Part shown: piece by piece, positions 1,574 to 42,418 of the stretch | Layout: each line of letters begins with the position of its first letter | Numbering within the stretch: position 1 is the stretch's first letter | Assembly: GCF_900009145.1 (NCBI RefSeq) | Contig: NZ_LN889815.1 | Location: 293,558-340,208, forward strand | Source of the DNA: Planktothrix tepida PCC 9214 | GTDB lineage: Bacteria > Cyanobacteriota > Cyanobacteriia > Cyanobacteriales > Microcoleaceae | Direction of reading: 5' to 3' | Length of the DNA stretch: 46,651 nucleotides | Program-made: the position numbers and the translations under genes | Notes under the pieces: generated by a model | Told to the model about the DNA's origin: nothing | Seen by the model: only the letters and a program-made list of their open reading frames with translations | Databases searched by the model: none

Positions 1574-1608
1574 TGTCGATACACACGATTCATCAACCTT
1601 ATGTTATC

Positions 1609-2835: not shown

Positions 2836-2847
2836 CGCAGGGGTGGG
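2818..2847 (+). repeat. Right-end hairpin of the IS605-type element, probable omega RNA 3' stem
   Basis: CCCACCCCT (2818-2826) pairs perfectly with AGGGGTGGG (2839-2847) around a 12-base loop. It contains the tnpB stop codon. In this family the right end both binds TnpA and forms the 3' stem of the TnpB guide RNA. The following bases, which belong to the primase gene, would then serve as guide. Confidence 0.7.
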
Positions 2848-5626
2848 AGTGTCAACTCCGAGTGTTCACCCCACAACGGGAGAGTATGTTTGGGTGAGCG
2901 GTTGCGCTCCTGATGAAATTGCAATTGCCATCGCTCCTTTGTGGCTCATAGAAGCAATGCTTCAAGAGGAGACAGAACCTGCTACCGCAGCAAAGCCATA
3001 TCCCCTTCACAATGAAGTTAACATCTATTATCCCCCAACTTCAAACAACTCTCAACTGCAATGGACTGATGCAGATTGGGCTTTGTCTTATCTAGCCGCA
3101 TTATCCCCAAGTCGGGCTGATCATTACGAGGACTGGTGTAGCGTTGGTATGATACTTAAATCCATTGATGAGTCTTTACTCCCTGAGTGGGAAAGTTGGA
3201 GTCGCCAATCTTCTAAATATAAACCTGGAGAATGTGATAAGAAATGGAAATCTTTTAACAAAAGTGGAGTAGGAATTGGGACTCTAGCATTGATGGCAAA
3301 ACAAGATGGCTGGAGTTCACCATTTCGAGGGCAATCGCTGTTTAATGGGAGTCATACTTTTCATCTAAATTCACCTCAAATAATCCGTACTAAAAATGGG
3401 CATAACAACAATAATAGTATGTCCGATCTTTCTAATCGTTCAGGCGATTGCACTTTAAATAACACCCCGTCTTTATATGATCAAGTTACGACTATTTTAA
3501 CAAGTGACAATAACCCTCCTCAACAAAGTGCTGCTTTTGTTGAACTCTCATCAACGAAAGGCTATCCGCTCAGGGGCGTTAAACAGTTAGCCGTTGAAAT
3601 TGAAACTTATATTGGTAATCAAGAAAGAAGTACAGAAGATGCCCGTGAACTGAATAAACTCCTCAATTACCGTGAACAAAAACTTGATATTACCCAAATT
3701 TTACCCGCTCCTCTCGCCCAAGCCTTATTAACAAAAGCCGATTCTGACCGTCTTGATCCGGCTTATCTTTATCAATATCTCTTAACAGCTTGTGGTAGTG
3801 AAATGGGCGGACATATTGGCATTGTTGGTAAACAAGGTGCAACGGTAGCCGATAGTTGGATAGAATACCCTATTTTTTGGACAATGGTTATTGCCTTGGC
3901 ATCAGGTGGAAAAAGTCAGACGATGCGCTCTATTTTTGATCCCATTAAACATCGCTATAAGCAAAGTAAAACAGAATATAAAAAACTCAAAACCGAGTTA
4001 CAGGGGTTAGAAGAAGCATGGCAACAAAAGTCATCAGAAGAGAAGGAAGAACTCAAAAATAGTCAACTCAATCCTACGGTATTTAAAGCCACCATGCCAC
4101 CGCCACCACCCAAAAAGTTAATTGAAGCTGGAACTCCAGAAGGAGCTTTAAGACGATTGAGTGAATTAGCTTCGAGGAGTGGCTGTGTTTGGGTTTTTGA
4201 TGAATTAGTGCGATTGTTAAAATTAGATCAATATAAAGATAAAGGGGGAGATACCCGTCAAATTTTATTACAAACTTGGAATTCTCCATCAGATCTCGAA
4301 TTTGAGCGTTCTAATGAAGAAGATTCTTTTGAACTCAAAGATTTGTGTTTAAATTTAACAGGTGCAACTCAACTTTCAAAAATTAAAACCTTGTTTAGTG
4401 ATCCTGATGATGGAGATGGTCTAATTAGTCGCTTTTTAATTGCGGTTCCTGCCAGTCCAGATAACTTTGCAGTTTGGTCAGATTCAGTCGTTGCAATTAA
4501 TCAAGAATTACAAGATTTATATGAGCATCTGCGGGTATTACATCAGCGATTACGAGAATTTCGTAAAGGTAGAAATGAGGAAAATGAATTTTTAATCGGC
4601 AGGGATGAAGCAGTTGAAATGCAAGAGGATGGGGATCTGTTCTCAACTCCTTCCGATGATTCTCACGAGGAACAACTGCCTTTTTTATTATCTTTTACTC
4701 CCCAAGCACGGCGACGGTGGCAGCGATGGTGGGAGGAAGTTCGGCGCAATCAACAGGGGGTGGAATTTGAGAATCCGGCATTGTTTGCCTATTTGGGCAA
4801 AATGCTCAGTCAAACCTTGAGATTAGCACTGCTGTTGCACTGCATGGAATTAAAATATGAGCAAAAATCTGACCCTTTGCGGGTGGGTATCGAAACTTTA
4901 GAACGAGCTATTTTAGCGGCAAAGTTTAGTATCGGACAGTTCCGTATTATTCAAACGAATAACCATCAATCCGATTCTCTCCCTGGCCGATTGTCCTTAA
5001 TTCACGCCTATGCTTTAAGAAAAGGAACAGAAGTCTCGGCGGTACAAGTTCAAAATACTGTGTTTAAGCGTTGCAAACCGAAACCCACCCTTGCGGAAAT
5101 CCGACAGGATTTTGCCACCCTGACTGAGAATGGATATGCAGTTTTATCTGGGAAAGGCAAAGACTTACGAATTAGAGCAATTCCGATTTCTCAAGCAAAT
5201 GTCGGAATTCCGAATCATTCCGACGGCTATTCCGACACCCCTCAAGTGAATGAAAAACTGAATCGGAGTTCAATCCAACCGTCACTCGTCAAAAATTCCG
5301 ACAATTCCGACCCAAAAACATTTTTTTCAACCCAGCTTGAAAATAACTCTAGCCAATTGGGGGATGAGGAAACTCCTAAAGTTATTCCAGTAGCCGAAAG
5401 CAGTCTTTCCGATCCAGGGGAAAGGTTATTTGATCAGGGGGTAGATCACGTTTCGGATCAAAATTGTCGGAATTGTCGGAATTCTGATGATGAAAGCTCT
5501 CCAGATCTTTATAAGCAAGGAATTTTAGACGATGAAAGGCTGTCGGAAACTTGTCGGAACGATGTCGGAATTTCCGACAATCTGTTGGAAGAAAATTCCG
5601 ATTCATCAGGAAATTTGCAGTTTTGA
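2843..5626 (+). CDS. Primase/helicase-like protein (PriCT-2 + DUF3987), N-terminally truncated by IS insertion
   Basis: The open frame begins at a GTG inside the IS right-end hairpin. Recognisable protein begins around PSVHPTTGEYVWVSG, which in the family is the tail of the N-terminal prim-pol domain. That domain, roughly 200 residues, is missing. Residues 78-158 match a primase C-terminal 2 domain (WALSYLAALSPSRADHYEDW, WSRQSSKYKPGECDKKW). Residues 290-700 match DUF3987, a RecA/helicase-like module, with a Walker-A-like ASGGKSQ at 352-358 and a Walker-B-like VFDE at 451-454. The C-terminal 200 residues are low complexity with NCRNCRN and SDNSD runs caused by a DNA repeat cluster. Such proteins prime and unwind plasmid or phage replication origins in cyanobacteria. 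Whether the remaining part is translated is uncertain, so this may be a pseudogene. Confidence 0.8.
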   Translation: MGVSTPSVHPTTGEYVWVSGCAPDEIAIAIAPLWLIEAMLQEETEPATAAKPYPLHNEVNIYYPPTSNNSQLQWTDADWALSYLAALSPSRADHYEDWCSVGMILKSIDESLLPEWESWSRQSSKYKPGECDKKWKSFNKSGVGIGTLALMAKQDGWSSPFRGQSLFNGSHTFHLNSPQIIRTKNGHNNNNSMSDLSNRSGDCTLNNTPSLYDQVTTILTSDNNPPQQSAAFVELSSTKGYPLRGVKQLAVEIETYIGNQERSTEDARELNKLLNYREQKLDITQILPAPLAQALLTKADSDRLDPAYLYQYLLTACGSEMGGHIGIVGKQGATVADSWIEYPIFWTMVIALASGGKSQTMRSIFDPIKHRYKQSKTEYKKLKTELQGLEEAWQQKSSEEKEELKNSQLNPTVFKATMPPPPPKKLIEAGTPEGALRRLSELASRSGCVWVFDELVRLLKLDQYKDKGGDTRQILLQTWNSPSDLEFERSNEEDSFELKDLCLNLTGATQLSKIKTLFSDPDDGDGLISRFLIAVPASPDNFAVWSDSVVAINQELQDLYEHLRVLHQRLREFRKGRNEENEFLIGRDEAVEMQEDGDLFSTPSDDSHEEQLPFLLSFTPQARRRWQRWWEEVRRNQQGVEFENPALFAYLGKMLSQTLRLALLLHCMELKYEQKSDPLRVGIETLERAILAAKFSIGQFRIIQTNNHQSDSLPGRLSLIHAYALRKGTEVSAVQVQNTVFKRCKPKPTLAEIRQDFATLTENGYAVLSGKGKDLRIRAIPISQANVGIPNHSDGYSDTPQVNEKLNRSSIQPSLVKNSDNSDPKTFFSTQLENNSSQLGDEETPKVIPVAESSLSDPGERLFDQGVDHVSDQNCRNCRNSDDESSPDLYKQGILDDERLSETCRNDVGISDNLLEENSDSSGNLQF

Positions 5627-9951: not shown

Positions 9952-11367
9952 ATGACACAAAATTGGGTTCAACCCTCTTTTCAATTAACCTCTCAACAAG
10001 AGCAAGCCTTAAAACAAATTGAGCAATTTCTCAACAGTCGTCAACAAATCTTTGGATTATTCGGATATGCAGGTACAGGAAAATCAACAATTATTAATTT
10101 AATTGCTCAACAGCTTGTCAATGCAGGAAAACGAGTTACATTTACCGCTCCCACCAATAAAGCTGTAGGAGTTTTGCAACGCATGGCAACTGAGAAAAAA
10201 GTTAGAGGAGTAGATTTTATGACGATTCATCAACTCTTAGGATTAGCTCCTGTTAAACAAGGACAACATAAAATCCTCAAACAAGTTTTACCTTCATTAC
10301 TGCATTTATACGATACAATTTTTCTGGATGAATGCAGCATGGTGACAACCGAATTGTGGAATATTATTCAACACCGAATCCAGAATACTTTACTGATTGG
10401 TAAAAATCGCCAACTCATCGTTATGGGAGATCCCGCTCAATTATCCCCAGTTAACGAGGATAATCATGAACGAAGATCACCATCTTTTAATGTAGAAAAT
10501 AAAGTTGTTTTAACCGAAGTTGTTCGTCAAATGAAAGATAGCCCTCTCCTAGAATTTGTAACCGCTTGTCGAACTGCTGTTAAAAGTAAAACCGTTTTCA
10601 AACCCTTCTCCAAATTTGACTTAGAGCGCAAAAATGGAGCTTTCATGGTTCGAGAAGAAAGGTTTCTCAAATACGCACTGAAGAAATTCTCTGCAACTTT
10701 TCCTTCAGATCCAGATTGCTTCCGAATTCTCTGCTACACTAACAAACGAGTTGCTTACTGGAACCATAAAATTAGAGCAAAACTCTACGGAAAAAATGCA
10801 CCTAGATTTTTGGTGGGAGAAAGACTCATTAGTAAAGCTCCTGTGATTGCTCCAGATGGAAAAACCGTTATTCTTCCTACCTCAACAGAAGTAGAAGTGA
10901 TGGAAGCGGTAGAAGATCGCTATTCGGGTTATAAAGCCTGGAAACTGAAGGTTAAAATCGAGAATAATGGCAGTTTTTATGCTTCCGAGGATCTGCGACA
11001 AATCTATCTGCTTCATGAAGACGATGCTCAAAAGTTTCACAAAGATAATATCAAATTATTACGAAACGCTAAAACTAATCCTAGCCTTTGGAAAGCTTGG
11101 TATAATCATTGTGAAATCTTTGCAGATCTGCGAAATTGTTGGGCTTTAACGGTTCATAACGCTCAAGGCTCTACTTTCCGAGAAGTCGGAATTGATAGCC
11201 ATGACATCTCTAAAAAAGTTGCGACTAAGTTTTTGTATTTAGCTCAACATCTTCCTAACCAAAAACTTGACTTTTTAAGAGAATATCGCAACAGTGTCTT
11301 AGCGTGTAACCAACTTTATTATGTCAGTTGTAGCCGAGCTAAAAATCGAGTTTTCATTATTCGTTAA
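9952..11367 (+). CDS. Dda/RecD-like SF1 DNA helicase
   Basis: A 471-residue superfamily 1B 5'-3' helicase of the Dda/RecD2 type. Motif I is GYAGTGKSTII (38-48), motif Ia TAPTNKAVGVL, motif II LDECSM (125-130), motif III MGDPAQLSPV, motif IV-like LTEVVRQ, motif V ALTVHNAQGSTF and motif VI YYVSCSRAKNR. The length is close to phage T4 Dda (about 440) and shorter than RecD2. Dda proteins clear bound proteins and remodel forks during phage-type replication, which fits the clamp and polymerase genes nearby. No RecB or RecC partner is present. The start ATG at 9952 gives a normal N-terminus (LTSQQEQALKQIEQFL). The gene stops immediately before the convergent membrane protein gene. Confidence 0.93.
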   Translation: MTQNWVQPSFQLTSQQEQALKQIEQFLNSRQQIFGLFGYAGTGKSTIINLIAQQLVNAGKRVTFTAPTNKAVGVLQRMATEKKVRGVDFMTIHQLLGLAPVKQGQHKILKQVLPSLLHLYDTIFLDECSMVTTELWNIIQHRIQNTLLIGKNRQLIVMGDPAQLSPVNEDNHERRSPSFNVENKVVLTEVVRQMKDSPLLEFVTACRTAVKSKTVFKPFSKFDLERKNGAFMVREERFLKYALKKFSATFPSDPDCFRILCYTNKRVAYWNHKIRAKLYGKNAPRFLVGERLISKAPVIAPDGKTVILPTSTEVEVMEAVEDRYSGYKAWKLKVKIENNGSFYASEDLRQIYLLHEDDAQKFHKDNIKLLRNAKTNPSLWKAWYNHCEIFADLRNCWALTVHNAQGSTFREVGIDSHDISKKVATKFLYLAQHLPNQKLDFLREYRNSVLACNQLYYVSCSRAKNRVFIIR

Positions 11368-12716: not shown

Positions 12717-13589
12717 ATGCCACAAATTCCTGTCTCGGTAGTTACACCTGGATACCGCTCTCAGTCAGAAGACACCAGCATTGATGCAGATGTGCTGATG
12801 TTTCAACTGCTTCGACAACTGACACCCCAACAGAGAACCCAAAGATTTCGACACTTCAATCAAGCTACTCGCAAACTAACGATAATAGCCATTAAAAATC
12901 ATTATCCTAATGCTTCTTCATCCCAGATTTATCAAGAATTCATCAGAAGGCATTTAGGATCAGAATGGCTAACAATTTTAAAATTAAAAGCAACAGAATT
13001 TGAAGAAAAATTTAGGATTGAAGATCCTTTGGAACTAGCTATTCAAATGGCAACCTTATTTGAAACTTTAAATATTCCCTATTTAGTGGGTGGGTCTGTA
13101 GCCAGTTCCCTTCTAGGAGAAAGCCGCTCAACCCAAGATTTAGATTTAGTTATCAGCATTTCGCTATCAAAAGCACAGCAACTCATTCGAGTAATGGAAC
13201 AGGAGTTTTATATTAGTGAATCGGCAGTTGTCGAAGCGGTGACTGAAAAACGCTCTTTCAATGTTATTCATTTAACCTCATTGGAAAAAATAGATATTTT
13301 TGTGATTGGAGATGATGCTTTTTCTCGTTCTAAAATGAATCGTCGCCAACTTTATAAAATTGATGAATCAGAAAAAGGTATTTACATTTATTCAGCCGAA
13401 GATATAATTCTACAAAAGTTATATTGGTATTTACTGTCTGCTACAGAATCTCAAAAGCAGTGGAGAGATGTCTTGGGAGTTTTAAAAGTGCAAGGAGAAC
13501 GTCTGGACTTCAACTATCTTAATCAATGGGCAGAAATTCTCCAAGTCCAATCTCTTTTAGAGTTAGCTTTACAACAAGCAGGGTTATAA
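12717..13589 (+). CDS. Nucleotidyltransferase-fold protein, paralogue 1 (next to dnaN)
   Basis: The 290-residue protein has an N-terminal helical domain beginning PQIPVSVVTPGYRSQSEDT and a nucleotidyltransferase fold. The nucleotidyltransferase signature is GGSVAS (125-130), then RSTQDLDLVI with Asp141 and Asp143, and a third acidic position in KIDIFV (Asp193). The end, QWRDVLGVLKVQGERLD, is shared almost word for word with the paralogue at 40006-40872. Proteins of this general fold include AbiEii/MNT-type toxins and antitoxins, but no partner antitoxin or toxin lies beside either copy. It is directly upstream of dnaN, dnaX and holA on the same strand. Substrate is unknown; a role linked to replication is inferred only from position. 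The start is supported by alignment with the paralogue. Confidence 0.75.
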   Translation: MPQIPVSVVTPGYRSQSEDTSIDADVLMFQLLRQLTPQQRTQRFRHFNQATRKLTIIAIKNHYPNASSSQIYQEFIRRHLGSEWLTILKLKATEFEEKFRIEDPLELAIQMATLFETLNIPYLVGGSVASSLLGESRSTQDLDLVISISLSKAQQLIRVMEQEFYISESAVVEAVTEKRSFNVIHLTSLEKIDIFVIGDDAFSRSKMNRRQLYKIDESEKGIYIYSAEDIILQKLYWYLLSATESQKQWRDVLGVLKVQGERLDFNYLNQWAEILQVQSLLELALQQAGL

Positions 13590-13626
13590 AAAAAAATAAT
13601 ACTAATTTCATAATTTCCCAGTTTTT

Positions 13627-13644
13627 TAGCAGCTATCGCTGCTA
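13627..13644 (+). repeat. 7-bp hairpin in the dnaN leader
   Basis: TAGCAGC TATC GCTGCTA is a perfect stem-loop located 29 bases before the dnaN ATG at 13673, after the upstream gene stop at 13589. It could be a weak terminator or a leader structure that tunes dnaN expression. It is followed by TTTT-containing but not T-rich sequence. Confidence 0.5.
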
Positions 13645-13672
13645 GGTTTTGATCTATATATTAGTGGGAAAA

Positions 13673-15067
13673 ATGCCAACTAAAACCCGACGTTCGGCAA
13701 CTCAAAACCGAATTAAAAAGAACAAACCTTCTGACCTTCAAACTGTTCCTTCTCAAACCCCTAAAATTTTAACAGAAGAAAAAAGCCAAGTTGTTAACAC
13801 CTCTAAAACTTCCCCCTCTTCCTCAACTTCAGATGTTACTCTGCAACTGCTTTGCACACAAAATGATTTAGCAACTCACCTCGAACTGGTTAGCCATGCT
13901 GTTCCTGCTAAACCAACCCATCCCATATTAGGTAATGTTCTGTTAGTAGCTTGCGCTAAAACTCAGCGTGTTTACTTAAGCGTATTTAATCTAAGTTTAG
14001 CCATTCAAACTTCCTTTGAAGCTAAGGTTAACACTCCAGGGGAAACGACAATTCCCGCCGAACTTTTAAGTGAAATTGTTCGTAAATTTTCTTCGGGTGA
14101 TCTCCAATTAAGTAACTCAATCTCTTTGAATACTGAAGATAACCAAGATTACCATTTAAGTACAACTAAACCCGAACAAAATCCGATTTTAACTTTAGTT
14201 TCCGCCAGTGGACGCTACCAAGTTCGAGGTTTATCAAGTGATGAATTCCCCTCAATTCCTGAAGTCAATTCTTGCCAAAATCTGGCTATGGCTGCGGAAG
14301 CTCTAAAAAGTGGTATTAAAGGAGCATTATTTGCAACAGCGACCGATGAAACGAAGCAAATCTTAACCGGAGTGCATCTAAAAATTAACTCTAATACCTT
14401 AGAATTGGTGGCAACGGACGGTCATCGATTAGCTGTGGTAGAAACCTCTATTCAAGGGTTCAAGAAAAAGAAAGAAACGGAGAATACAGAACCTTTGCAA
14501 TTTACTCTTCCCGCTAAATCTCTATTGGAACTAGAGCGGATTTTATCGAGTCGGACTTCTGCGGAATCTGTACAACTGTCTTATAATCTGACCACGGGTT
14601 ATGTAGAATTTTCTTGGGGCGTACAACGGCTGATCACTCGTTGTTTAGAAGGGGAATATCCCGCCTACCAAGATCTATTAAACCACGACTTCAAACATCA
14701 AGTTTACCTAGAAAAATTGCCTTTTGTGAAAGCACTGGAACGGCTATCGGTCTTGGCGGATAAAAAGGAAAAAATCATCAACATTGACTTTAGCCCTGAA
14801 AACCAGCAAGTTTCCTTATCCTTATTAAGGGAGTTTGGAAATGGAAGGGAAGAAATGACAGCAATTCTCAACTTTAGTCATTCTTTTTCCATTTCTTTCA
14901 ATATTAAGTATTTGTTGGAAGGGATTAAAGCGATCGCTAGTTCTGAAATTTCAATCCACCTCATTGATAGTGATCATCCAGCTATCTTAAAACCTTTTGG
15001 TAATCGAGAACAACCCCATCTTTTAATCGATAGCCAATACTTGTTAATGCCTGTTGTCAAATCTTAA
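13673..15067 (+). CDS. dnaN: DNA polymerase III beta subunit (sliding clamp), accessory copy
   Basis: This is a beta-clamp homologue of 464 residues from ATG 13673 (MPTKTRRSATQN), which follows GTGGGAAAA; an upstream ATG at 13649 is less likely. Residues from about 60 onward are clamp sequence: LELVSHAVPAKPTHPILGNVLL, then SGRYQVRGLSSDEFPSIPE, LVATDGHRLAVVE and the C-terminal LLMPVVKS, close to the usual MPM(R/K) end. The first 58 residues are a basic, Ser/Thr/Lys-rich extension not found in ordinary clamps of about 370-380 residues. The clamp tethers polymerase to DNA. dnaX follows after 14 bases and holA overlaps dnaX, so the three are one operon. Chromosomal cyanobacterial genomes do not group these genes, so this is an accessory replisome copy. 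Confidence 0.93.
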   Translation: MPTKTRRSATQNRIKKNKPSDLQTVPSQTPKILTEEKSQVVNTSKTSPSSSTSDVTLQLLCTQNDLATHLELVSHAVPAKPTHPILGNVLLVACAKTQRVYLSVFNLSLAIQTSFEAKVNTPGETTIPAELLSEIVRKFSSGDLQLSNSISLNTEDNQDYHLSTTKPEQNPILTLVSASGRYQVRGLSSDEFPSIPEVNSCQNLAMAAEALKSGIKGALFATATDETKQILTGVHLKINSNTLELVATDGHRLAVVETSIQGFKKKKETENTEPLQFTLPAKSLLELERILSSRTSAESVQLSYNLTTGYVEFSWGVQRLITRCLEGEYPAYQDLLNHDFKHQVYLEKLPFVKALERLSVLADKKEKIINIDFSPENQQVSLSLLREFGNGREEMTAILNFSHSFSISFNIKYLLEGIKAIASSEISIHLIDSDHPAILKPFGNREQPHLLIDSQYLLMPVVKS

Positions 15068-15081
15068 CTCTTCTTGTCATT

Positions 15082-16464
15082 ATGTATACTCCATTTCCTC
15101 AAAAATATCGTCCCCGTATCCTATCCCAATTAACCGGACAGGAGTACATTCAAAGAACCCTTTCTAACGCAATTCAAGGGAATAAAATTGCTCCTGCTTA
15201 TTTGTTTACAGGAGAACGAGGGACTGGAAAAACCTCAACAGCACGAATTTTAGCGAAGTCCTTAAATTGCACCGCTACCGACCAACCCACTGTTACTCCT
15301 TGCGGTCAATGTCAGTCCTGTCGTTCTATTGAAAAAGGAAGCAGTTTAGACGTCATGGAAATTGATGCAGCTTCCCACAATGGAGTTGAAGATGCTCGGA
15401 ATTTGATTGAACGAGTCCATTTTGCTCCCGCTATCGGTCGTTACCGAATTTTTGTTTTAGACGAAGTTCATTGTCTCAGTTCCCAAGCTTTTAATGCTCT
15501 GCTCAAATGTCTTGAAGAACCACCCGCTCATGTTGTCTTCATTCTCTGCACAACAGAAGCACATAAAGTGCTACCTACTATTGTCAGCCGATGTCAAGTA
15601 TTTCGGTTTCAGCCGCTTTCTGTTGATGCTATAGTTCAGCACTTAACCATGATTGCTGAAAAAGAAGCTATCCCTATCACCTCCTCGGCTAAAATTGCGA
15701 TCGCTCGCGCCTGTGGGGGTGGACTGCGCGACGCCTTGCAATTACTGGGTCAGTTAAGCTTATTGGGAGAAGAAATTACCCATTCTCAAGTTCTAGCACT
15801 ATCGGGTCGCGTTTCAGAGTCCGACTTGGTAACAATACTGCACCGCATTAACACTGGAGACACCCTGAAGCTGCTACAACTGTCTCGTGAACTTCTTGAT
15901 AGTGGAAAAACACCCCTGACTCTGCTAACTTCCTTGCTGAGTTGTTATCGAGATTTGCTGCTAGTCGCCAACGTCCCTGACTGTTCATCCTTACTCACCA
16001 GTGGGGTTTCTTATCCCAAACTCAAGGCGATCGCAAAAACTTGGAGTCAATCTTCAATTCATCAAGGTTTTGAACAGTTAAGTGCTTCAGAATGGCAGCT
16101 TAATAAAAGTGTACAACCGAGTTTATGGCTAGAAGTTTGTTTACTGGGATTAATTCCTAAATCTCCTAAAACTAAACCCCGTAATCATCAAACTCACAAG
16201 CGAAATTCAACCTCTGTTTCCTCCTCAAAACCCCTTGATCTAAAAAACACCATTTGGGAAACCGTGCTATCAAAAGCATCTGAAAAGAATCGAGTTTTCC
16301 TGTCGGTTGCTTTCCTGGCGGAACTAACCGAGCAAAAAGCCATCTTAGCTGTACCTCCCCCATATCTTAACAAATTTAACCGCAATATTCGGAAGGTACA
16401 AAAACTATTTTTGGCAGCAACAGGAATTAACTATCAAGTCTTAATTCAGGAGGGAAATCAATGA
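15082..16464 (+). CDS. dnaX: DNA polymerase III gamma/tau subunit (clamp loader ATPase), accessory copy
   Basis: A 460-residue clamp-loader ATPase. The start is PFPQKYRPRILSQLTGQ. Walker A is GERGTGKTST (44-53), the four zinc cysteines are C63, C74, C77 and C80 (CGQCQSC), Walker B is VLDEVH (125-130), and the SRC arginine finger motif is in TIVSRCQVFRF. A lid helical domain and a collar domain follow, ending with a short tau-like tail. It loads the clamp together with delta. At 460 residues it is clearly shorter than the chromosomal cyanobacterial DnaX proteins, which often exceed 600. The stop overlaps the holA start by four bases (ATGA), which suggests translational coupling. No inteins or frameshift site were seen. 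Confidence 0.95.
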   Translation: MYTPFPQKYRPRILSQLTGQEYIQRTLSNAIQGNKIAPAYLFTGERGTGKTSTARILAKSLNCTATDQPTVTPCGQCQSCRSIEKGSSLDVMEIDAASHNGVEDARNLIERVHFAPAIGRYRIFVLDEVHCLSSQAFNALLKCLEEPPAHVVFILCTTEAHKVLPTIVSRCQVFRFQPLSVDAIVQHLTMIAEKEAIPITSSAKIAIARACGGGLRDALQLLGQLSLLGEEITHSQVLALSGRVSESDLVTILHRINTGDTLKLLQLSRELLDSGKTPLTLLTSLLSCYRDLLLVANVPDCSSLLTSGVSYPKLKAIAKTWSQSSIHQGFEQLSASEWQLNKSVQPSLWLEVCLLGLIPKSPKTKPRNHQTHKRNSTSVSSSKPLDLKNTIWETVLSKASEKNRVFLSVAFLAELTEQKAILAVPPPYLNKFNRNIRKVQKLFLAATGINYQVLIQEGNQ

Positions 16465-17441
16465 TTAGCTTGTTAGTCGGTGATGATCGGTATGCAATTT
16501 CCAAAAAACTCTCGGCTTTCAAAAAAAGCCTTGACCCTGCTTGGCTTAGTTTCAACTATCATCGCTTTCATGCTTCTGCTGTAGATGAAGCCATTTATTG
16601 TGCTTTAACTCCGGCTTTGGGTTCAGTTAAAGCTAAATTAGTCATCGTGGAGGACTGCAACTTTAAACAGTTTGATGAAGCGGTGATGGATACTCTTCAA
16701 TTTCTCCCAAGAGTCCCTCAATCAACTCATTTGATTTTTGTAGCTTCCAGCCTTGACAAACGATTAAAAGTCTCAAAATTTCTGCTCTCCCAAAGCCAAC
16801 TGTTTGAATTCAATTTGATTGTGCCTTGGCGAAGTGATCTCATCGCCCAATATATCCGTACCCAAAGCCTTCGCATTGGTTTATCATTGGATCAAAATAG
16901 TAGAGAATATTTAGCTGACGCTATTGGCAATGATTCAGCCCGAATTGAATCTGAACTGCAACTTCTAGCTCTCTACAGTAACGGTGCAAAGCTGAGTTTA
17001 AAACAAGTTCGTTCTCTTATCCCTTCCATTACCCAAAATAGCCTCCAATTAGCTAAAGCGATTCGAGAAAATAATGCCAAAAAAGCGGTTGATTTACTCC
17101 AAAAACTCTTGACAAAAGAAACGTTTCCTGCTGCGATTTGTGCCACCCTCATTACCCAATTTAGAACTTGGCTTTGGGTTAAAGCAACAATTGTTAAGGG
17201 AGTTAAATCTGATGCTGAAATTGCCAAGATTTGCCAAATTTCTAATTTCAAACGAGTCTATTTTCTTAAACAAGAGGTACAAACGATTCCTTTGCAATCT
17301 TTAGTAAAAGCTGTATCTTTGTTACTGGATTTGGAAATAGCTTTAAAACAGGGAAAACGAAACTCGCTGCTGTCTTCTATTCTGGCAATTACCCAACTGT
17401 TTGCAAGCCAACCTGTTAAAACAGCAGCTAAATTGTTTTAA
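16461..17441 (+). CDS. holA: DNA polymerase III delta subunit (clamp loader), accessory copy
   Basis: This 326-residue protein has the HolA layout: an N-terminal domain without a Walker A motif (MISLLVGDDRYAISKKLSAF), then LVIVEDC, FLPRVPQSTHLIFVASSLDKRLK, and a helical middle (YLADAIGNDSARIESELQLL). The C-terminal collar part is QNSLQLAKAIRENNAKKAVDLL. Delta opens the clamp ring during loading. It overlaps dnaX by four bases, so stoichiometry of delta to gamma is probably set by coupled translation. No holB (delta prime) gene is visible in the window, so the accessory loader may use the host subunit or several DnaX copies. Confidence 0.88.
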   Translation: MISLLVGDDRYAISKKLSAFKKSLDPAWLSFNYHRFHASAVDEAIYCALTPALGSVKAKLVIVEDCNFKQFDEAVMDTLQFLPRVPQSTHLIFVASSLDKRLKVSKFLLSQSQLFEFNLIVPWRSDLIAQYIRTQSLRIGLSLDQNSREYLADAIGNDSARIESELQLLALYSNGAKLSLKQVRSLIPSITQNSLQLAKAIRENNAKKAVDLLQKLLTKETFPAAICATLITQFRTWLWVKATIVKGVKSDAEIAKICQISNFKRVYFLKQEVQTIPLQSLVKAVSLLLDLEIALKQGKRNSLLSSILAITQLFASQPVKTAAKLF

Positions 17442-17624: not shown

Positions 17625-19127
17625 CTATAGCGATCGCCACTTATGATTCGGCTCTAAAATCTGATTGGCGGCTGTTGGCCCATCACTTCCTACTGGGTAA
17701 GTATGCACAATATCGCTTTCGGAGAGATGACCATTATTAATGGTTAAAGTCTCCCAGTGATTTAAAATTGGCATCACGACAGCCCATTGTGCCTCAACTT
17801 CGTCCGCGCGGACAAATAAAGTGCGATCGCCCTCTATCATACTCTCAATTAAAGTCTGATAAGCTTCGGGAATTGTTTCTTCAAATCCTCCTTTGCTATT
17901 ATACAAGAAATCGAGAGATTTTTGACGGTTATTTGGTTCACCTGGAACCTTGACATTCCACGTTAGAGAAATTGCTTCATCTGGTTGTAATCGCAAAACC
18001 AAAGTATTAGGAATTGCTGTGAACAACGTGGAAGGAACTCCTTTGAAATGAGCAGAAATTTCTGTCTCTTTATTTTTTGCTCCTTTCCATGGCCGCACAT
18101 AAATTGGGATGCCTTGCCACCGATAGTTATCAACCATCAGCTTGAGAGCAATGTAGGTTTCTTCCGTGCGATCATACCCTTCATAATAACCGCGAATAGT
18201 AAATTTTGGATCGGCTTTTAACACTCGTAAAAGCTTTACTTTTTCATCACGGATATCATCAGCACTTAAAGAGTTTGGTGGCTCCATTAATAACAGGCAT
18301 ATCAATTGAAACAGGTGGTTAACCACCATATCTTTCAATGCCCCAACATACCCCCGGCCATCGGGAACAAGAACAGTTTCAGCCGCCGTAATTTCGATGT
18401 AATCGATAAATTGGCGACTCCAGAGATGTTCAAAAATTCCATTAGCAAACCGGAAGTTTAAAAGGTTCTGAACTGTTTCCTTGCCCAGCCAATGATCCAT
18501 GCGGTAAATCTGAGACTCTTGGCAATATTGCAAGATGATAGCGTTTAATTTCTGGGCAGATTCTAGTGAACTGCCAAAGGGCTTTTCTACAGCTAACCGG
18601 GCATTTTCATCGGCTAATAAACCCGCTTGACCTAATCCTTGAATTGTTGGCTCAAATAAATTCGGCAACAAACTCAAAAAATAGATAATCTTTCGGTTAG
18701 GCGATACTTTTCGTTCAGTTTCTAAGCCAGAAATTTTATCTTTGAGCGATTGATAATTTCCCGTTAGAACATTAAAGGGGAAATAGACAATATGCTCAAG
18801 AAACGCTGCCATTTCTTCTGATTCTGGCCCTTTATCCAGTAGATCTTGTCGCACCCACCCCCGAAAAGAACCAGACGTCATTTCTGGGTTCAAATCTACC
18901 GCTAAGATGGTAAAGTTAGCAGGTAACTTTTCCTCTTTGAACGATTGGAAAAGTGCCAGGAAGAGTTTCAAGCTGGCTAAGTTTCCACCTGCGCCAAATA
19001 GGACAAAAATCAAGTCTTTTTGACGGACACTGATTTTAGCTTCAAGCGCTTTGGCAGATGCCAAATCCATAGCAACTTTCTCACTGGCGCTTGTGTTGAA
19101 TCCTTTGACCGTGCTTTGTTCTGACAT
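17625..19127 (-). CDS. zwf: Glucose-6-phosphate dehydrogenase, divergent accessory copy
   Basis: The 500-residue protein belongs to the G6PDH family, which oxidises glucose 6-phosphate to 6-phosphogluconolactone and makes NADPH. The active-site motif is RMDHWLGKETVQN (catalytic His212 and Lys216 in DHWLGKE), with EKPFG at 181-185. The nucleotide-binding loop reads GAGGNLASLKL (45-55) instead of the usual GASGDLAxRKL, and DHYLGKE has Trp for Tyr, so it is distant from housekeeping cyanobacterial Zwf. No opcA or gnd neighbour is seen. The N-terminus carries about 30 extra residues before KDLIFVLFG. Cyanophages carry zwf as an auxiliary metabolic gene, so a phage or plasmid role in redirecting carbon to NADPH and nucleotide precursors is plausible. 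Activity is not certain given the altered motif. Confidence 0.85.
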   Translation of the reverse strand: MSEQSTVKGFNTSASEKVAMDLASAKALEAKISVRQKDLIFVLFGAGGNLASLKLFLALFQSFKEEKLPANFTILAVDLNPEMTSGSFRGWVRQDLLDKGPESEEMAAFLEHIVYFPFNVLTGNYQSLKDKISGLETERKVSPNRKIIYFLSLLPNLFEPTIQGLGQAGLLADENARLAVEKPFGSSLESAQKLNAIILQYCQESQIYRMDHWLGKETVQNLLNFRFANGIFEHLWSRQFIDYIEITAAETVLVPDGRGYVGALKDMVVNHLFQLICLLLMEPPNSLSADDIRDEKVKLLRVLKADPKFTIRGYYEGYDRTEETYIALKLMVDNYRWQGIPIYVRPWKGAKNKETEISAHFKGVPSTLFTAIPNTLVLRLQPDEAISLTWNVKVPGEPNNRQKSLDFLYNSKGGFEETIPEAYQTLIESMIEGDRTLFVRADEVEAQWAVVMPILNHWETLTINNGHLSESDIVHTYPVGSDGPTAANQILEPNHKWRSL

Positions 19128-20391: not shown

Positions 20392-20461
20392 GATTTAGTA
20401 AAAACAAAATATTACAGTGAAGATCAACTTAAAAAAAGCCAATTTGTACAGGAGATCAGTT

Positions 20462-25248: not shown

Positions 25249-25309
25249 TGCATCCTCCTTGCGAATCGTTAGAGTCGATAGGAGCGTTACCACTCCTACC
25301 TCTCCTTCA

Positions 25310-25343
25310 GAACCGTGCATGAAACTTTCGCCTCACACGGCTC
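25310..25343 (-). ncRNA. Group II intron domain V (catalytic helix)
   Basis: The 34-base segment read on the minus strand starts GAGCCGTGTGAGGCGAAAGT and ends CACGGTTC. The GAGCCGT/ACGGTTC stem with a GAAA loop is the signature of domain V, the most conserved part of group II introns. It follows the maturase gene and precedes a domain VI stem (GGTAGGAG / CTCCTATC). The conserved core looks intact, so ribozyme activity with maturase supplied in trans is possible. Confidence 0.88.
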
Positions 25344-25375
25344 CTTGATATTTCCACTTTTGTTATTGGTACGAT

Positions 25376-31044: not shown

Positions 31045-32946
31045 TCACTCTTCGCGTTTCCCAATCCCCCCAGCGGAAAACACTCGTTTAGAACGTCCTG
31101 TCTGATGAGCGATCGCATCTAAAGGATCTGAGCCGTAATTGCGGTTTACCTCCAATGTGTCTGGCGATTGCGGGGGAACATTTCCCCCCGGATCAGGTAA
31201 CGGTAACATCCGTTCAGCCTCCTCAATGCGCTCGTATAATGCGGCGGTAAGTCCCTCCAGATCAGTCAATTTAACCCGGCTTTCCAAACGAGGTCTAACT
31301 TGTTCATCCCACAACGCCTCACTTTCATCTTTGCGCTTCAAATCCGCTTTAGGAATAGGAATAGTCAGTGCGTAAGGAATCGACCCTTCGCCACCGGAAC
31401 TGTAACCGGGATTAGTAATCACACATCGTCCTTGGGGAAATCGCAAAATTTCGTCAATGGAAAATAAAGGCATTTTTTGTAGAGATTCGTTCCAACTAAT
31501 TGAGCGATTACTGGCAGATTGACCGCCAAAAGAACGACTGGTAGACTTACTTTTGATCAAAACTTCTTGATCACCATAACGCTCTGAATATTTTTTTGCC
31601 GTGTCCGTATTCCCAGGGTTAAATAGAATGTGGGTACTGCAAGCAGAGGCGATCGCTGCTCCCATTTTCTCCCCATATCCTTCATAAAGTTGTTCCAAAC
31701 TTTGAATTCCTAACAGAAAACAAGCTCCATTAGAACGATATTCATTAATCCATTGTGGCATCCGTTCTAATCGAATCGATGGAAATTCATCCAATGAAAT
31801 AATCAACGGATCTTTTCGGGGACGACTTAAATTAGAAACTACTAACAAGTGAATAGCCGCCGCCAACAAAGGCCCAACAACAGAGCGTCGCTCATCATCA
31901 AGTTTAAAAATGATCATTTGACGACCTTCAAGCCGAGTCGGAATATCCGATTTCCCCAAAAAAGCTCGCAGTAAATCAGCTTGAATAAAATTACTAAACG
32001 TTCCGGCGGCGGTTGTTAGAATTCCTGAGATGGTTTTTTCCGCATCTTTCGCACTCAAAAACTGATTAAAACTCGTGGCTACCCACTCATCAATTTGCCG
32101 AGATTGAATCGCATAATCAAGCCTTTTGACTAAATTCGGCAACCTCAAAATTGCATACAGCATTGCCATATCAGGATACTTTGAACCTTTCACTAATTGT
32201 AGTAAAGCTTTCGCTAATAAATCTCCCGCTTTTGAGAAAAATTCATCACTTTTTCCTTGATTAGAACTTGCATTACGATTAATAACTTGACCAATTTCTC
32301 CCGCCATTACAGAATCTTGAGGAGATTTCATAAAATCGAGGGGATTAATTACACCGGAATAAGCTTCCCCAGGTGCAAACACCCAAACTTTATAACCGTA
32401 ACGCGCGGCTAAAGGAGCATGAAGTTTAAGTTGATCTCCTTTTTTATCATAAAGAAGAATCGGAAATCCTTGCACCATTGCACTTTCAATTGCTCGATCA
32501 ATCGTTGAAAATGTTTTACCAGATCCCGGCGCTCCTATCACTAAAATTGAGCGTTCTGCATGGGGTAACCAAACCGTTGGACTAGCTCCTAAAGCAGTTT
32601 GAAAAGTTGCTACAAAACCTCTTAATTTTAATCCCCGCCACCAATAGCGAGGACTCCCACACCACAACGTTACTTTATTATGTTTATTCTCTTTAATTTG
32701 TTGAAGTGCTAACCGAGTTGCACCTACTTTTTCCAGGGTTCCACATTGTTTTCCGGTGGTGATTTTTCCTCGACTTCCGCCTATAAATCGAGAGGCTACC
32801 AGTAGAACAATAAACATCCCTAGGGTTAAATATCCTTCTGGGTTATTATACTCTTGAAACAATCCTTTAAAATCTAGTGAAAATAAAGGAAGGGGTTGTT
32901 CTGTTTTTTGAGAAGTCTGAGCCAAAATCGGATTAAAATTATTCAT
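31045..32946 (-). CDS. Type IV secretion coupling protein (VirD4/TraD-like)
   Basis: The 633-residue ATPase has one N-terminal membrane segment (YLTLGMFIVLLVASRFIGG) and Walker A IGAPGSGKTFSTID (137-150). LLYDKKGDQLKLHAPLAARYGY and VWVFAPGEAYSGVINPLDF follow, with Walker B LIISLDEFPSIRLERMPQW (Asp386, Glu387). The T4CP fingerprint SNGACFLLGIQSLEQLYEGYG is present. It recruits the relaxase-DNA complex to the transfer channel, so the replicon is likely conjugative or mobilisable. No relaxase is seen in the window. It converges with the genes to its left, and the acidic-tailed protein gene is divergent from it, 236 bases away. Starts at ATG 32946. Confidence 0.92.
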   Translation of the reverse strand: MNNFNPILAQTSQKTEQPLPLFSLDFKGLFQEYNNPEGYLTLGMFIVLLVASRFIGGSRGKITTGKQCGTLEKVGATRLALQQIKENKHNKVTLWCGSPRYWWRGLKLRGFVATFQTALGASPTVWLPHAERSILVIGAPGSGKTFSTIDRAIESAMVQGFPILLYDKKGDQLKLHAPLAARYGYKVWVFAPGEAYSGVINPLDFMKSPQDSVMAGEIGQVINRNASSNQGKSDEFFSKAGDLLAKALLQLVKGSKYPDMAMLYAILRLPNLVKRLDYAIQSRQIDEWVATSFNQFLSAKDAEKTISGILTTAAGTFSNFIQADLLRAFLGKSDIPTRLEGRQMIIFKLDDERRSVVGPLLAAAIHLLVVSNLSRPRKDPLIISLDEFPSIRLERMPQWINEYRSNGACFLLGIQSLEQLYEGYGEKMGAAIASACSTHILFNPGNTDTAKKYSERYGDQEVLIKSKSTSRSFGGQSASNRSISWNESLQKMPLFSIDEILRFPQGRCVITNPGYSSGGEGSIPYALTIPIPKADLKRKDESEALWDEQVRPRLESRVKLTDLEGLTAALYERIEEAERMLPLPDPGGNVPPQSPDTLEVNRNYGSDPLDAIAHQTGRSKRVFSAGGIGKREE

Positions 32947-33182: not shown

Positions 33183-34205
33183 ATGGTTAAGACGAATGGT
33201 AAAGTTAGAGCTAAAAGCTCTACGAATCTAAAAATGGCTGAAGATCAAACTTCTTTACAGCCCGAAAACCTTAATTTTGAAATTGACTCAGAACTTTTAG
33301 AATCCCGTTACAATTTTGTTAGACGACCCATTCTTCCCTATGGGATTGTTGTTAATGAACAAGTTGCGGGTATTTTGATTCCCGAAGATCAATTAGAAAA
33401 AGCGAATTGGTTAGTTTTCCCAACCGATGAGGAAATGACAACCATTAGTTTAACAGAAGACGTAACGGGTTTATTACTGTCTAAATGTCGCTTTTGTGTA
33501 TTAGCATTTATTCCTGAATACATTCGTTATAAAAACGATATTCCTGATTTAGGAGGTAGTGTTGTTGGCTTGTATGAAGAATACAAAAGTCAACTGAACA
33601 AAAAGACAATGGATGTTGTGAGTGAACACGCGCTCGTCTTTTTAGATGAAATGAACCGTCCTTTACACAATAATCCGATTGTTGTTAGGTTTAAGAATGT
33701 TGCATTGTGGAGTTTTAAGGCGGTTCGAGAAGAATTTTATCGCTTACTGGAGAAAGCCTTTTCTGACTACTTGCATATTCCGTTTAGTAGCAAAAACGAT
33801 AAATGGCGCAGTCTGGGTATTCTTGATGTACAATTCAAGGGAGTTAAGGAAGGTGAAGGTTCTAATAAAAGCTACTGCTGTAAAACTGTTAGCTATATTA
33901 AGCCAACCGTTAACAATTTTCCTTCCCTCTATTTAGGAAAAACTCAGCAGAAAAAGTCAATTTGGGGGCTGCATGATACCATTTTAGGGTTTACAGAAAC
34001 ACCTGCATTACCTGGAACATCTGAACCTCAAATTCAAGTTCTTCCTCCCTCTTTTGCTGAAGAAGAACTTGGGAAAAAAGCAATCGCTTCCTCTAAACCT
34101 CCTCGTAAGATTATTGCATCTGTTGTTGAAGAAGATGATGAGTTTGATGAAGATTTAGATTTGGATGAATTTGATGAAGATCTTGATCTAGATCAGGATG
34201 AATAA
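33183..34205 (+). CDS. Hypothetical plasmid protein with acidic C-terminal tail
   Basis: The 340-residue protein resembles a family of cyanobacterial plasmid proteins (possibly DUF5895; named from memory). The core runs from RYNFVRRPILPYGIVVNEQ to LPGTSEPQIQVLP. The features are LLLSKCRFCVLAFIPEYIRYK, EEYKSQLNKKTMDVVSEHALV and SLGILDVQFKGVKEG. The last 30 residues are highly acidic, with FDEDLDLDEFDEDLDLDQDE made of a repeated motif. Acidic C-terminal tails are typical of bacterial and phage single-strand DNA-binding proteins, where they recruit partners. The lysine-rich N-terminus (MVKTNGKVRAKSS) fits a nucleic acid binder. SSB function is an inference only; it would fill a gap in the replisome. 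Confidence 0.6.
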   Translation: MVKTNGKVRAKSSTNLKMAEDQTSLQPENLNFEIDSELLESRYNFVRRPILPYGIVVNEQVAGILIPEDQLEKANWLVFPTDEEMTTISLTEDVTGLLLSKCRFCVLAFIPEYIRYKNDIPDLGGSVVGLYEEYKSQLNKKTMDVVSEHALVFLDEMNRPLHNNPIVVRFKNVALWSFKAVREEFYRLLEKAFSDYLHIPFSSKNDKWRSLGILDVQFKGVKEGEGSNKSYCCKTVSYIKPTVNNFPSLYLGKTQQKKSIWGLHDTILGFTETPALPGTSEPQIQVLPPSFAEEELGKKAIASSKPPRKIIASVVEEDDEFDEDLDLDEFDEDLDLDQDE

Positions 34206-37553: not shown

Positions 37554-38147
37554 ATGGAAAATATATCTTTAGTGGAGACAATTCTGTATCAGAAAGTTAA
37601 AGAAACTCCGCCTTACTCTTGGTTCCCATCTTCCCCTCAACTGATTGAAATCATGCTGAAAGAAGCACAGATTACCCCAGGATTATATGGTTTAGAACCG
37701 ACGGCGGGAGATGGGGTTTTAGCTGAAGCAATGGTTCAAGCGGGTGCAATTGTAGATGTGATTGAAATTGACTTTCTATTGCGTCAGATTCTTTTTCAAA
37801 AAGGATTTAATTTAGTGGGGTGTGATTTCTTAACATCTCAACCTCAACGCCAATACAATCGGATTCTAATGAATCCTCCCTTTTCTACTAATAAAGTTCG
37901 GGGAATTGATTTAGCGATGATTCAACGCGCTTATCACCTGTTTTTAGCATCTTCTGGTCGGTTGGTTAGCGTTGTCAGTAATTCAATGAATATCAAAAAC
38001 GATGAACGAGCGCAAACTTTCCGAGGATTTCTTAAACAAACGAAAGCCAACGTAATCAAACTCCCTTTAGAAATTTTTTGGGGTACTCTTCGTCCGGTTA
38101 CAGTTGAGACTTACCTCATTGTAATTGATAAAGCTTCTGAATTCTAA
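37554..38147 (+). CDS. SAM-dependent methyltransferase, N6-adenine DNA type, compact
   Basis: The 197-residue protein has motif I LEPTAGDGVLAEAM (47-60), an acidic ligand residue in VIEIDF (69-74), and motif IV NPPF (107-110) inside NRILMNPPFSTNK. NPPF is the catalytic motif of N6-adenine and related methylases. Target-recognition sequence is lacking, as in plasmid-borne orphan methylases. It has no restriction gene next to it, so protection of the replicon from host enzymes or regulation is more likely than a restriction-modification pair. It lies upstream of polA by 33 bases on the same strand and is likely in one operon with it. Confidence 0.8.
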   Translation: MENISLVETILYQKVKETPPYSWFPSSPQLIEIMLKEAQITPGLYGLEPTAGDGVLAEAMVQAGAIVDVIEIDFLLRQILFQKGFNLVGCDFLTSQPQRQYNRILMNPPFSTNKVRGIDLAMIQRAYHLFLASSGRLVSVVSNSMNIKNDERAQTFRGFLKQTKANVIKLPLEIFWGTLRPVTVETYLIVIDKASEF

Positions 38148-38180: not shown

Positions 38181-39938
38181 ATGAAATACAATTTTATTAC
38201 TAATCATGATCAGCTTAAAAAGACTCTATTTCCTTTAATGAACGCTTCTGTTCTGGCTATTGATACTGAAACAACCGGACTAGATCCCTTCATAGATCGG
38301 ATTTGTTTGATTCAAATTGCTGTCCCTCAATATCCTATTGTAATTATTGATTTAACTGCTATGGGAACGAGGGGATGTCAACTTTTAAAAAAACTCCTCA
38401 ATAGCCGTGCGCTGAAAATTTTCCAAAATGCTAAGTTTGATTGGCAAATGCTAGAAATGGCAAATCTCCGTCCGTCAGGGCCTTTTTTTGATGTAATGTT
38501 AGCCAGTCAAGTGTTACGTTCAGGACTTAAGAAAGACCATGATCTTCAATCTTTAGCTTGGGAATTTTTAAAGATTAAACTTGATAAAAGTTTACAGTTT
38601 AGTAATTTTGCAGGTAAACTTTCAACGGCTCAGTTAGAATATGCAGCATTAGATGCGGCTGTCTTACTGAAACTGAAAACTCGACTGCATTCTAAACTTG
38701 AAAAAGCAGGATTATTAGAAACGGCTCAAATCGAGTTTGATGCGTTGCCCGCCGTTGCCCAAATGGAACTGAATGGAATGCGGCTTGATGCAATAGCATG
38801 GCAGCAAGTAGGTTCTGAGTTAAAAGCTCAAGAACAGAGAGTATTAACTCAATTAATCAATGCGGGTTTAAAGCCACCCCCTAGCCCCCAATTGTCTCTA
38901 TTCCCCGAATTAACAGAAACGCTGAATCCTCGTTCTACTTCCCAAGTTTTACAAGCTCTTCGCGCGCTTAATATTCCGGTTCAATCAACTCGTAAAAATG
39001 AATTAATTCCTAAAGCTCGTGAATATCCAATTCTGCAATTTCTCCTCAACTATCGAAAGTTAGCATCTTTATGTTCTAACTTTGTAGAAGCTTTGCCTAA
39101 ACATATTCACCCCAAAACCGGGAGAATTCACCCCAGTTATCGGCAGTGCGGAGCGCGTTCAGGTCGCTTTAGTTGTCAACAACCGAATCTACAAAACATT
39201 CCCAGAAATTGTACTGCTCAAGGAATGCGAACCTGCTTTATTTCAGAACCAGGCTATCAAATTATTAAAGCAGATTATAGCCAAATTGAACTCAGAATTG
39301 TGGCTGAAATATCGAGCGATCGCCGGATGTTAAATGCTTATTCTAAAGGGGAGGATTTACACGCTTTAACGGCTTCTTTAATTACAGGGAAATTGTTAGA
39401 ACAGATTACGCCTGAAGATCGGCAAATTGCTAAATCTGTGAATTTTGGCTTAATTTATGGCATGGGGGCGGCTAAATTGCAAGCTTATGCTGAGGAAAAA
39501 TATGATGTTTTGTTGACGTTGGAGGAAGCTAAACTGTTTAGGAAAAGGTTTTTTACAGCGTATCAAGGGGTTAAGCATTGGCATGAACAAGTGAGGAAAA
39601 CGGTGTATGCTCAAGGACGAAGAGAGATTCGCACCATTGGCGGACGTCGAAGACGATGGGCTTCTAAACCCCGTCTGTGTGAGTTGCTCAATCATCCGGT
39701 TCAAGGTACTTCAGCCGATTTATTGAAAGTGGCGATCGCTCGTTTGTTTGAAGTTTTACCGAATACAGAAGCTAAGTTAATTGGTGTAGTCCATGATGAA
39801 ATTCTCTTAGAATGTCCTCAACAAACTCTTAAAAAAACAACTCGCCTTCTTAAAACCGTAATGATTGAGGCAGGACAACAATATTTGCAGCAAGTTCCGA
39901 TTGAAGTGGACGTGAAAACTGCCTTGAGTTGGGGTTAA
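38181..39938 (+). CDS. polA: Family A DNA polymerase without 5'-3' exonuclease, phage/plasmid type
   Basis: The 585-residue protein has a 3'-5' exonuclease domain with IDTETTGLDPF (exo I, Asp28 and Glu30), NAKFDWQM (exo II, Asp87) and YAALDAAVL (exo III). The polymerase domain has motif A DYSQIELR (365-372), motif B RQIAKSVNFGLIYGMG (414-429) with Phe422, and motif C VVHDEILL (536-543). No 5'-3' exonuclease domain is present at the N-terminus; chromosomal PolA has about 900 residues with that domain. All catalytic residues are intact, so it is probably an active replicative or repair polymerase of the replicon. It lies between a methyltransferase and an NTase gene. It can be the polymerase served by the clamp encoded at 13673. 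Confidence 0.95.
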   Translation: MKYNFITNHDQLKKTLFPLMNASVLAIDTETTGLDPFIDRICLIQIAVPQYPIVIIDLTAMGTRGCQLLKKLLNSRALKIFQNAKFDWQMLEMANLRPSGPFFDVMLASQVLRSGLKKDHDLQSLAWEFLKIKLDKSLQFSNFAGKLSTAQLEYAALDAAVLLKLKTRLHSKLEKAGLLETAQIEFDALPAVAQMELNGMRLDAIAWQQVGSELKAQEQRVLTQLINAGLKPPPSPQLSLFPELTETLNPRSTSQVLQALRALNIPVQSTRKNELIPKAREYPILQFLLNYRKLASLCSNFVEALPKHIHPKTGRIHPSYRQCGARSGRFSCQQPNLQNIPRNCTAQGMRTCFISEPGYQIIKADYSQIELRIVAEISSDRRMLNAYSKGEDLHALTASLITGKLLEQITPEDRQIAKSVNFGLIYGMGAAKLQAYAEEKYDVLLTLEEAKLFRKRFFTAYQGVKHWHEQVRKTVYAQGRREIRTIGGRRRRWASKPRLCELLNHPVQGTSADLLKVAIARLFEVLPNTEAKLIGVVHDEILLECPQQTLKKTTRLLKTVMIEAGQQYLQQVPIEVDVKTALSWG

Positions 39939-42416: not shown

Positions 42417-42418
42417 AA

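Follow-up and report, generated by a model that had tools for sequence, protein, structure and literature searches.

Plasmids commonly bring their own initiator and borrow the replicase of the host. A 46,651-nucleotide stretch of Planktothrix tepida PCC 9214 (the window; bases 293558-340208 of the 350,838-base contig NZ_LN889815.1, here C59, in a draft genome of 6.78 Mb and 191 contigs) raises the question of whether a large cyanobacterial plasmid can also supply the elongation machinery. It carries a dnaN-dnaX-holA operon and, 21 kb downstream, a gene for a family A DNA polymerase (PolA). Large plasmids of the family that shares these genes seem to come with a clamp, a loader and a polymerase of their own, the polymerase being of a different family from that of the host. 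We consider it probable that the system found in the window (type I, defined below) is a plasmid-borne hybrid replisome, in which a DNA polymerase III (Pol III)-type clamp and loader serve the plasmid's own non-Pol III polymerase. The operon comprises the following genes.

13673..15067, + strand: dnaN, plasmid beta clamp (curated profiles; open reading frame (ORF) listed from TTG 13649, ATG 13673 preferred)
15082..16464, + strand: dnaX, clamp-loader ATPase of 460 amino acids (curated profile)
16461..17441, + strand: holA, delta subunit, the clamp opener (curated profile; ATGA overlap with dnaX)

A plasmid lineage of clamp and clamp-loader genes

The order dnaN, dnaX, holA, proposed in an original prediction made from the sequence alone, was confirmed with the ORF list and with curated profile cut-offs, which all three products exceeded. 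DnaN scored 279 bits against TIGR00663 (cut-off 138), with all three clamp domains (PF00712, PF02767 and PF02768) above their cut-offs. DnaX scored 394 bits against TIGR02397, the DnaX N-terminal family (cut-off 250), and HolA 176 bits against TIGR01128 (cut-off 80). The DnaX sequence contains GERGTGKT and SRC, which we take to be the P-loop and the SRC motif. The listed dnaN start at TTG 13649 is probably too early, because ATG 13673 yields 464 amino acids, the annotated length of the Planktothrix copy. As predicted, dnaN and dnaX are separated by 14 bases (15068-15081), and the holA ATG at 16461 overlaps the dnaX TGA by 4 bases, with GGAGG shortly 5' of it. The same ATGA forms the inferred holA start in 56 of the 61 type I loci having both genes, which places the arrangement beyond chance. 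Type I clamps, that of the window included, have a common K/S/T-rich N-terminal extension.

The host carries its own copies on other contigs, dnaN on C46, dnaX on C26, holA on C57 and a holB-like gene on C40. The assumption that cyanobacterial chromosomes scatter these genes therefore stands for this host, which is as far as it was shown. Identity between window and host proteins was 42% for DnaN, 38% for HolA, and 62% and 46% in two pieces for DnaX. The host chromosomal dnaX frame is 810 amino acids long, with a long tail and an insert that looks intein-like, neither of which is present in the 460-residue plasmid protein. Short DnaX also occurs off plasmids, as one relative has a copy of 454-460 amino acids on a 6.7-Mb contig. 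Quick trees, in which several long branches were flagged, were built for all three proteins. In the HolA tree (61 rows) the 26 type I rows all fall to one side of a branch whose Shimodaira-Hasegawa-like approximate likelihood ratio (SH-aLRT) is 100, and in the DnaX (63 rows) and DnaN (49 rows) trees a branch with support 100 parted type I from chromosomal and type II sequences. Window DnaN, DnaX and HolA appear in all three trees as members of a plasmid lineage split from the chromosomal copies. No tRNA genes were found on C59 by ARAGORN in 18 stretches covering the contig. C59 also had no dnaE match; the single dnaE-type match (PF07733) in the whole genome lies on C57, so Pol III alpha was not found on the same replicon. 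The phylogeny suggested as a check, the 38-62% identities and the lack of tRNA genes together support the prediction that an accessory replicon encodes a clamp and loader specific to plasmids; the genes neither cluster tightly with those of the host nor form a sole chromosomal copy.

The window HolA matched 41 records in PLSDB. Fifteen of these, with HolA at least 42% identical, were designated type I, and 25, with 30-35% identity over most of the length, type II; one match was partial. DnaX was present on all 40 full-length HolA records, and DnaN was among the matches listed for 14/15 type I and 18/25 type II records. Scanning a single genome for each species turned up 66 loci, every one under a cyanobacterial title. 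These underlie most of the 64 type I loci among 80 compared, a set that includes some plasmids twice, from two sources. The expectation that the operon would recur on other plasmids was thus borne out. Additional dnaN matches were seen in 4/60 sampled genomes, own genome included. A phage origin of the module, and with it the term 'phage-plasmid' used in the prediction, was rejected: no HolA relative was confirmed in a pattern scan of IMG/VR, and three weak matches occurred among 50,697 phage records. No paper describing such plasmid modules was found in the open-licence literature (subscription papers and preprints being outside that scope).

A linked family A polymerase with a candidate clamp-binding peptide

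The polymerase gene and the block around it are as follows.

31045..32946, - strand: type IV coupling protein, in block syntenic with polA (Pfam, locus comparison)
33183..34205, + strand: DUF5895 protein; the same family also adjoins type II clamps (Pfam, locus comparison)
37554..38147, + strand: methyltransferase-like gene directly upstream of polA (locus comparison)
38181..39938, + strand: PolA, family A polymerase with 3'-5' exonuclease, proposed plasmid replicase (Pfam, structure model)
38889..38903, + strand: QLSLF codons, PolA residues 237-241, proposed clamp-binding peptide (sequence, model)

The PolA-type polymerase named in the prediction proved to be one, with polymerase and 3'-5' exonuclease domains scoring 293 bits (PF00476) and 103 bits (PF01612), and synteny and co-occurrence support it as the linked partner of the clamp operon. 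The block of coupling protein, DUF5895, M23 protein, methyltransferase and polA accompanies the clamp operon in Planktothrix p1 and in Gloeocapsa as well, and a reduced version of it does so in Stanieria. In Planktothrix agardhii NIVA-CYA126/8 plasmid p1 (NZ_LR882935.1) both operon and block have the same order, with 94.5% identity for DnaN, 95.2% for DnaX, 94.2% for HolA and 96.9% for PolA; p1 differs in having shortened helicase and nucleotidyltransferase (NTase) genes with an IS701 element between them, and no glucose-6-phosphate dehydrogenase gene after holA. Such a gene lies directly after holA in P. tepida (window 17625-19127). Among the matches listed, PolA was found on the same record in 11/15 type I versus 2/25 type II plasmids (Fisher p 3e-5). 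PolA distances in 10 replicons correlated with those of DnaN, DnaX and HolA at r 0.955-0.968, as high a value being reached in 0/5000 permutations. As for transfer functions on C59, the coupling protein is present, and no transfer domain was seen in ten other ORFs scanned, a small part of those on the contig.

The closest PDB match of PolA by sequence was the apicoplast polymerase apPOL (301 bits, against 234 for Klenow). A fold search likewise gave apPOL (TM 0.89), and both apPOL and Aquifex Pol I ranked above Klenow; apPOL, however, lacks QLSLF in the aligned stretch. Previous work has linked the family A polymerases of viruses with those of Aquificales and Apicomplexa. PolA alone has distant phage relatives in at least 5000 records and in 30 IMG/VR loci (22-45% identity in the best segment), so PolA itself may be of phage-side ancestry. 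Related PolA genes also lie beside a DnaB-like helicase on small (12-17 kb) cyanobacterial plasmids typed non-mobilizable.

Pairwise alignment with the host chromosomal PolA showed an insert with QLSLFPEL in the plasmid protein. At the insert site Q[LMIV][SDTP][LI][FLV] was present in 50/60 plasmid-type PolA and 0/21 chromosomal-type PolA, the latter lacking the insert. The 60 include the window and near-identical entries, their plasmid status not being verified entry by entry, and the 21 are the host copy plus 20 hand-picked among weaker PolA matches. Stanieria is among the ten that lack the motif, as are PolA proteins encoded on small plasmids, one from Cyanobacterium aponinum (12 kb) and one from a close relative; no annotated clamp gene was present in the stretch seen around PolA and the DnaB-like helicase on plasmids of the C. 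aponinum type. A passage of PMC3716654 gives QL[S/D]LF as the clamp-binding consensus and QLGLF as the Pol II peptide. The AlphaFold model of PolA, built with 16 sequences, has a mean predicted local distance difference test (pLDDT) score of 90.6. QLSLF falls within its least confident stretch (residues 231-250, pLDDT 65-67), between helices 204-227 and 253-262. From the model, QLSLF is proposed as a candidate clamp-binding peptide at an accessible place in what may be a flexible loop. Two other C59 proteins carry a canonical clamp motif: one of 231 amino acids (L019:274-969) ends in QLSLF, and a PD-(D/E)XK nuclease-like protein (L013:19288-19971) has QLDLF.

The clamp pocket was compared in 13 replicons with E. 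coli DnaN as the numbering ruler. Window DnaN has the E. coli residues T172, G174, L177, P242 and M362; at the positions of V247 and V360 both it and host DnaN have L. Where the polymerase peptide ends in F (3 type I and 4 type II replicons), the clamp keeps L177 and M362 in 7/7 cases. Where it ends in L (6 replicons), the clamp has V177 and L or A at 362, and 0/6 keep both L177 and M362. The association of pocket with last peptide residue gave Fisher 6e-4 with ancestry ignored and few independent events. In Stanieria, whose PolA has no peptide, clamp residues 174 and 175 are both S and residue 362 is A.

Type II plasmids, the proposed mechanism and its alternatives

Type II plasmids, for example Trichormus variabilis ATCC 29413 plasmid C and a Tolypothrix PCC 7712 plasmid, offer a parallel to type I, resembling the window in having plasmid dnaN-dnaX-polymerase-holA genes and a clamp-type peptide on the polymerase. 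They differ in that the polymerase is family-B-like with a C-terminal peptide, that delta' lies beside holA, and that HolA falls in another clade. The gene between dnaX and holA is annotated as hypothetical protein, 3'-5' exonuclease or DNA polymerase I. Pfam recognised family B exonuclease domains in it, and the family B polymerase domain exceeded its cut-off in 2/3 proteins scanned and was just below in the third. The family-B-like polymerase was found on 18/25 type II and 0/15 type I records, and in 7/388 sampled genomes. Of 13 cyanobacterial C-termini seen, some of them fragments and some near-identical, 12 have QLSLF, QLTLF or QLTLL either terminally or two residues short of the terminus; the sole exception (L258) is a distant relative, and a further copy (L254) is truncated. 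Copies ending in QLSLF lie at L217:6183-8000, L218:5247-7052 and L045:3991-5778, annotated as exonuclease, DNA polymerase domain protein or similar. The delta' gene was present on 24/25 type II versus 0/15 type I records (Fisher 4e-10), and the holB-like matches in type I loci lie inside dnaX.

Type II was rejected as a single clade. HolA supported it only in part (7/8 type II rows with the second module described below, SH-aLRT 96, Allocoleopsis outside), support in the DnaN tree was 83 without that module, and in the DnaX tree type II did not form one group. A cyanobacterial family B group, PolB_SITDG, is mentioned in a passage of PMC7544198; the type II proteins show DTDG, unlike the motif of that group. 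Nine Deinococcus plasmid records hold distant relatives of the type II polymerase (one at L262:7572-9869). In the one examined, the protein did not end in a clamp peptide and none of the genes annotated within 8 kb was for a clamp, and the Deinococcus gene was rejected as part of the system.

A second module was found on C59 itself.

C59:148987-156076 (L013:8987-16076), - strand: second module (M2), consisting of DUF5895, dnaN, dnaX, PolA-like, holA and holB genes, then a single-stranded DNA-binding protein gene

Its polymerase is a divergent PolA-like protein, in which no clear clamp peptide was found, only a weak QYTLF near the N-terminus. The search of the replicon for dnaE or holB suggested with the prediction accordingly gave no dnaE match and no holB in the window module, holB being present in M2. 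The placing of both modules on one replicon rests on the draft assembly, because C59 contains 14 single Ns and one 882-base gap, and single Ns flank the window.

In the hybrid replisome that we propose, DnaX as ATPase and HolA as clamp opener would load the plasmid DnaN ring onto primed plasmid DNA. The ring would tether the family A polymerase via QLSLF in the flexible loop, and synthesis would become processive. Since the module has no delta', the loader would need to borrow this subunit (the source being the host or, in this strain, M2) or act as DnaX plus delta. We infer physical binding, processive synthesis and use in vegetative replication. The core of the original prediction, a private clamp system with PolA, is right; the clamp peptide, the second plasmid family and the missing delta' had been overlooked. 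Clamp and loader subunits (beta, DnaX, delta) are members of the families of the Pol III holoenzyme, from which the system differs in that the contig has no alpha match, the module no delta', and the linked polymerase is of family A. T7 DNA polymerase with thioredoxin is a family A polymerase made processive through a bound partner, whereas the partner proposed here is a sliding clamp held by a short peptide. Phage T4 is likewise a mobile element encoding clamp, loader and polymerase, with a PCNA-like clamp, an RFC-like loader and a family B polymerase (partly general knowledge, partly passages of PMC7544198 and PMC7824862).

Several observations weigh against this proposal. Four of the 15 type I records had no PolA among the matches listed, 10/60 plasmid-type PolA have no motif, and Stanieria has the module with a motif-less PolA, though its clamp pocket has changed as well. 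By itself the motif says little: 0.375 occurrences of QL[SD]LF were expected from a shuffled proteome of 263 C59 ORFs, and 3 were seen. The usual pocket pattern (TDGHRL-like) is kept in 14/44 type I clamps versus 28/28 chromosomal ones. Co-inheritance is expected for linked genes. The numbers count sequences, among them near-identical ones and ones related by descent, and chromosomal clamps have the F-type pocket as well; for these reasons the permutation and Fisher values overstate the case. The action of the clamp on PolA is deduced from sequence, a conserved primase for type I was not found, and delta' is missing, type I plasmids elsewhere having no source like M2.

Other roles for these genes were considered. 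The clamp, loader and PolA might act in the recipient at conjugation, synthesising the second strand or helping the plasmid to establish itself again, with host Pol III replicating it vegetatively. A type IV coupling protein and DUF5895 are indeed encoded in the same block as polA, and 28 of the 41 HolA-bearing plasmids were typed conjugative (2 more mobilizable); but 11 were typed non-mobilizable, as were the 12-17 kb plasmids that bear related PolA beside a DnaB-like helicase, and we regard this role as unlikely. Slightly less likely still is that the plasmid clamp and loader serve the host DnaE, or that PolA is a clamp-guided repair polymerase rather than a replicase. Clamps of the window's clade retain the chromosomal pocket residues, and repair polymerases, Pol II and Pol V for example, have clamp peptides as well, as a passage of PMC3716654 states. 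Against this, the pocket residues shift where the PolA peptide ends in L, type II plasmids pair the clamp with a different polymerase that also bears a peptide, and C59 has no dnaE match. Duplicated genes are common on large plasmids, and some related loci are broken or without parts, as would be seen if the operon simply duplicated host genes and had no role of its own; the deep plasmid-only clade, the conserved overlap, the conserved motif and the linkage make this very improbable.

The hybrid replisome remains our preferred explanation for type I. More tentatively, it is possible that type I and type II form one widespread class on large cyanobacterial plasmids, with a Pol III-type clamp and loader joined to a replicase of family A in type I and of family B in type II. 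The peptides would have originated separately at different protein sites, the pockets would have coevolved, the type I loader would work without delta', and elongation would be independent of the host replicase. If true, a Pol III-type clamp could be re-used by replicases of both families, type I would provide a natural test of a clamp loader working without delta', and the clamp-polymerase pair might act independently of that of the host. Plasmid genes annotated as Pol III subunits, DNA polymerase I or 3'-5' exonuclease would then in many cases be parts of one machine.

Neighbouring genes in the window

Three upstream genes had also been assigned to the replication machinery.

2843..5626, + strand: PriCT-2/DUF3987 gene, not a conserved type I part (Pfam; directly after an IS200/IS605-type TnpB gene)
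9952..11367, + strand: Dda-like helicase, often upstream of dnaN in type I loci (Pfam, locus comparison)
12717..13589, + strand: NTase-like gene, not a conserved part (weak Pfam score)

The identity of the Dda helicase held, and its membership of the module held in part, as it lies upstream of dnaN in 26/38 loci with enough sequence. The NTase-like gene was rejected as part of the operon: it occurs in only 5/64 type I loci, and its score of 17.6 bits is below the PF01743 cut-off of 23. The gene at 2843, thought to encode a primase/helicase, had no primase catalytic domain recognised by Pfam, and was likewise rejected as the primase of the module, being present on 0/15 type I versus 19/25 type II plasmids (among the 40 of 41 matching records listed). 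It stands beside IS200/IS605-type TnpA and TnpB genes (window 1175-2835), and the ORFs directly upstream of the insertion had no Pfam match. A second TnpB lies at the window edge (3-731).

A 1313-residue NTPase-like gene occupies window 5849-9790, and an ORF of equal length lies at C59:28684-32625. The minus strand of window 25268-27015 carries a group II intron end (RF00029) with a reverse transcriptase/maturase ORF. Window 19441-24862 holds a helix-turn-helix gene, whose product has a TRADD-like N domain, and after it a gene for a 1481-residue TPR-CHAT protease; the two may be a defence pair. At window 41592-43477 a DUF4435-like gene, just below the cut-off, adjoins an AAA_15 ATPase gene, and this pair resembles a defence system.

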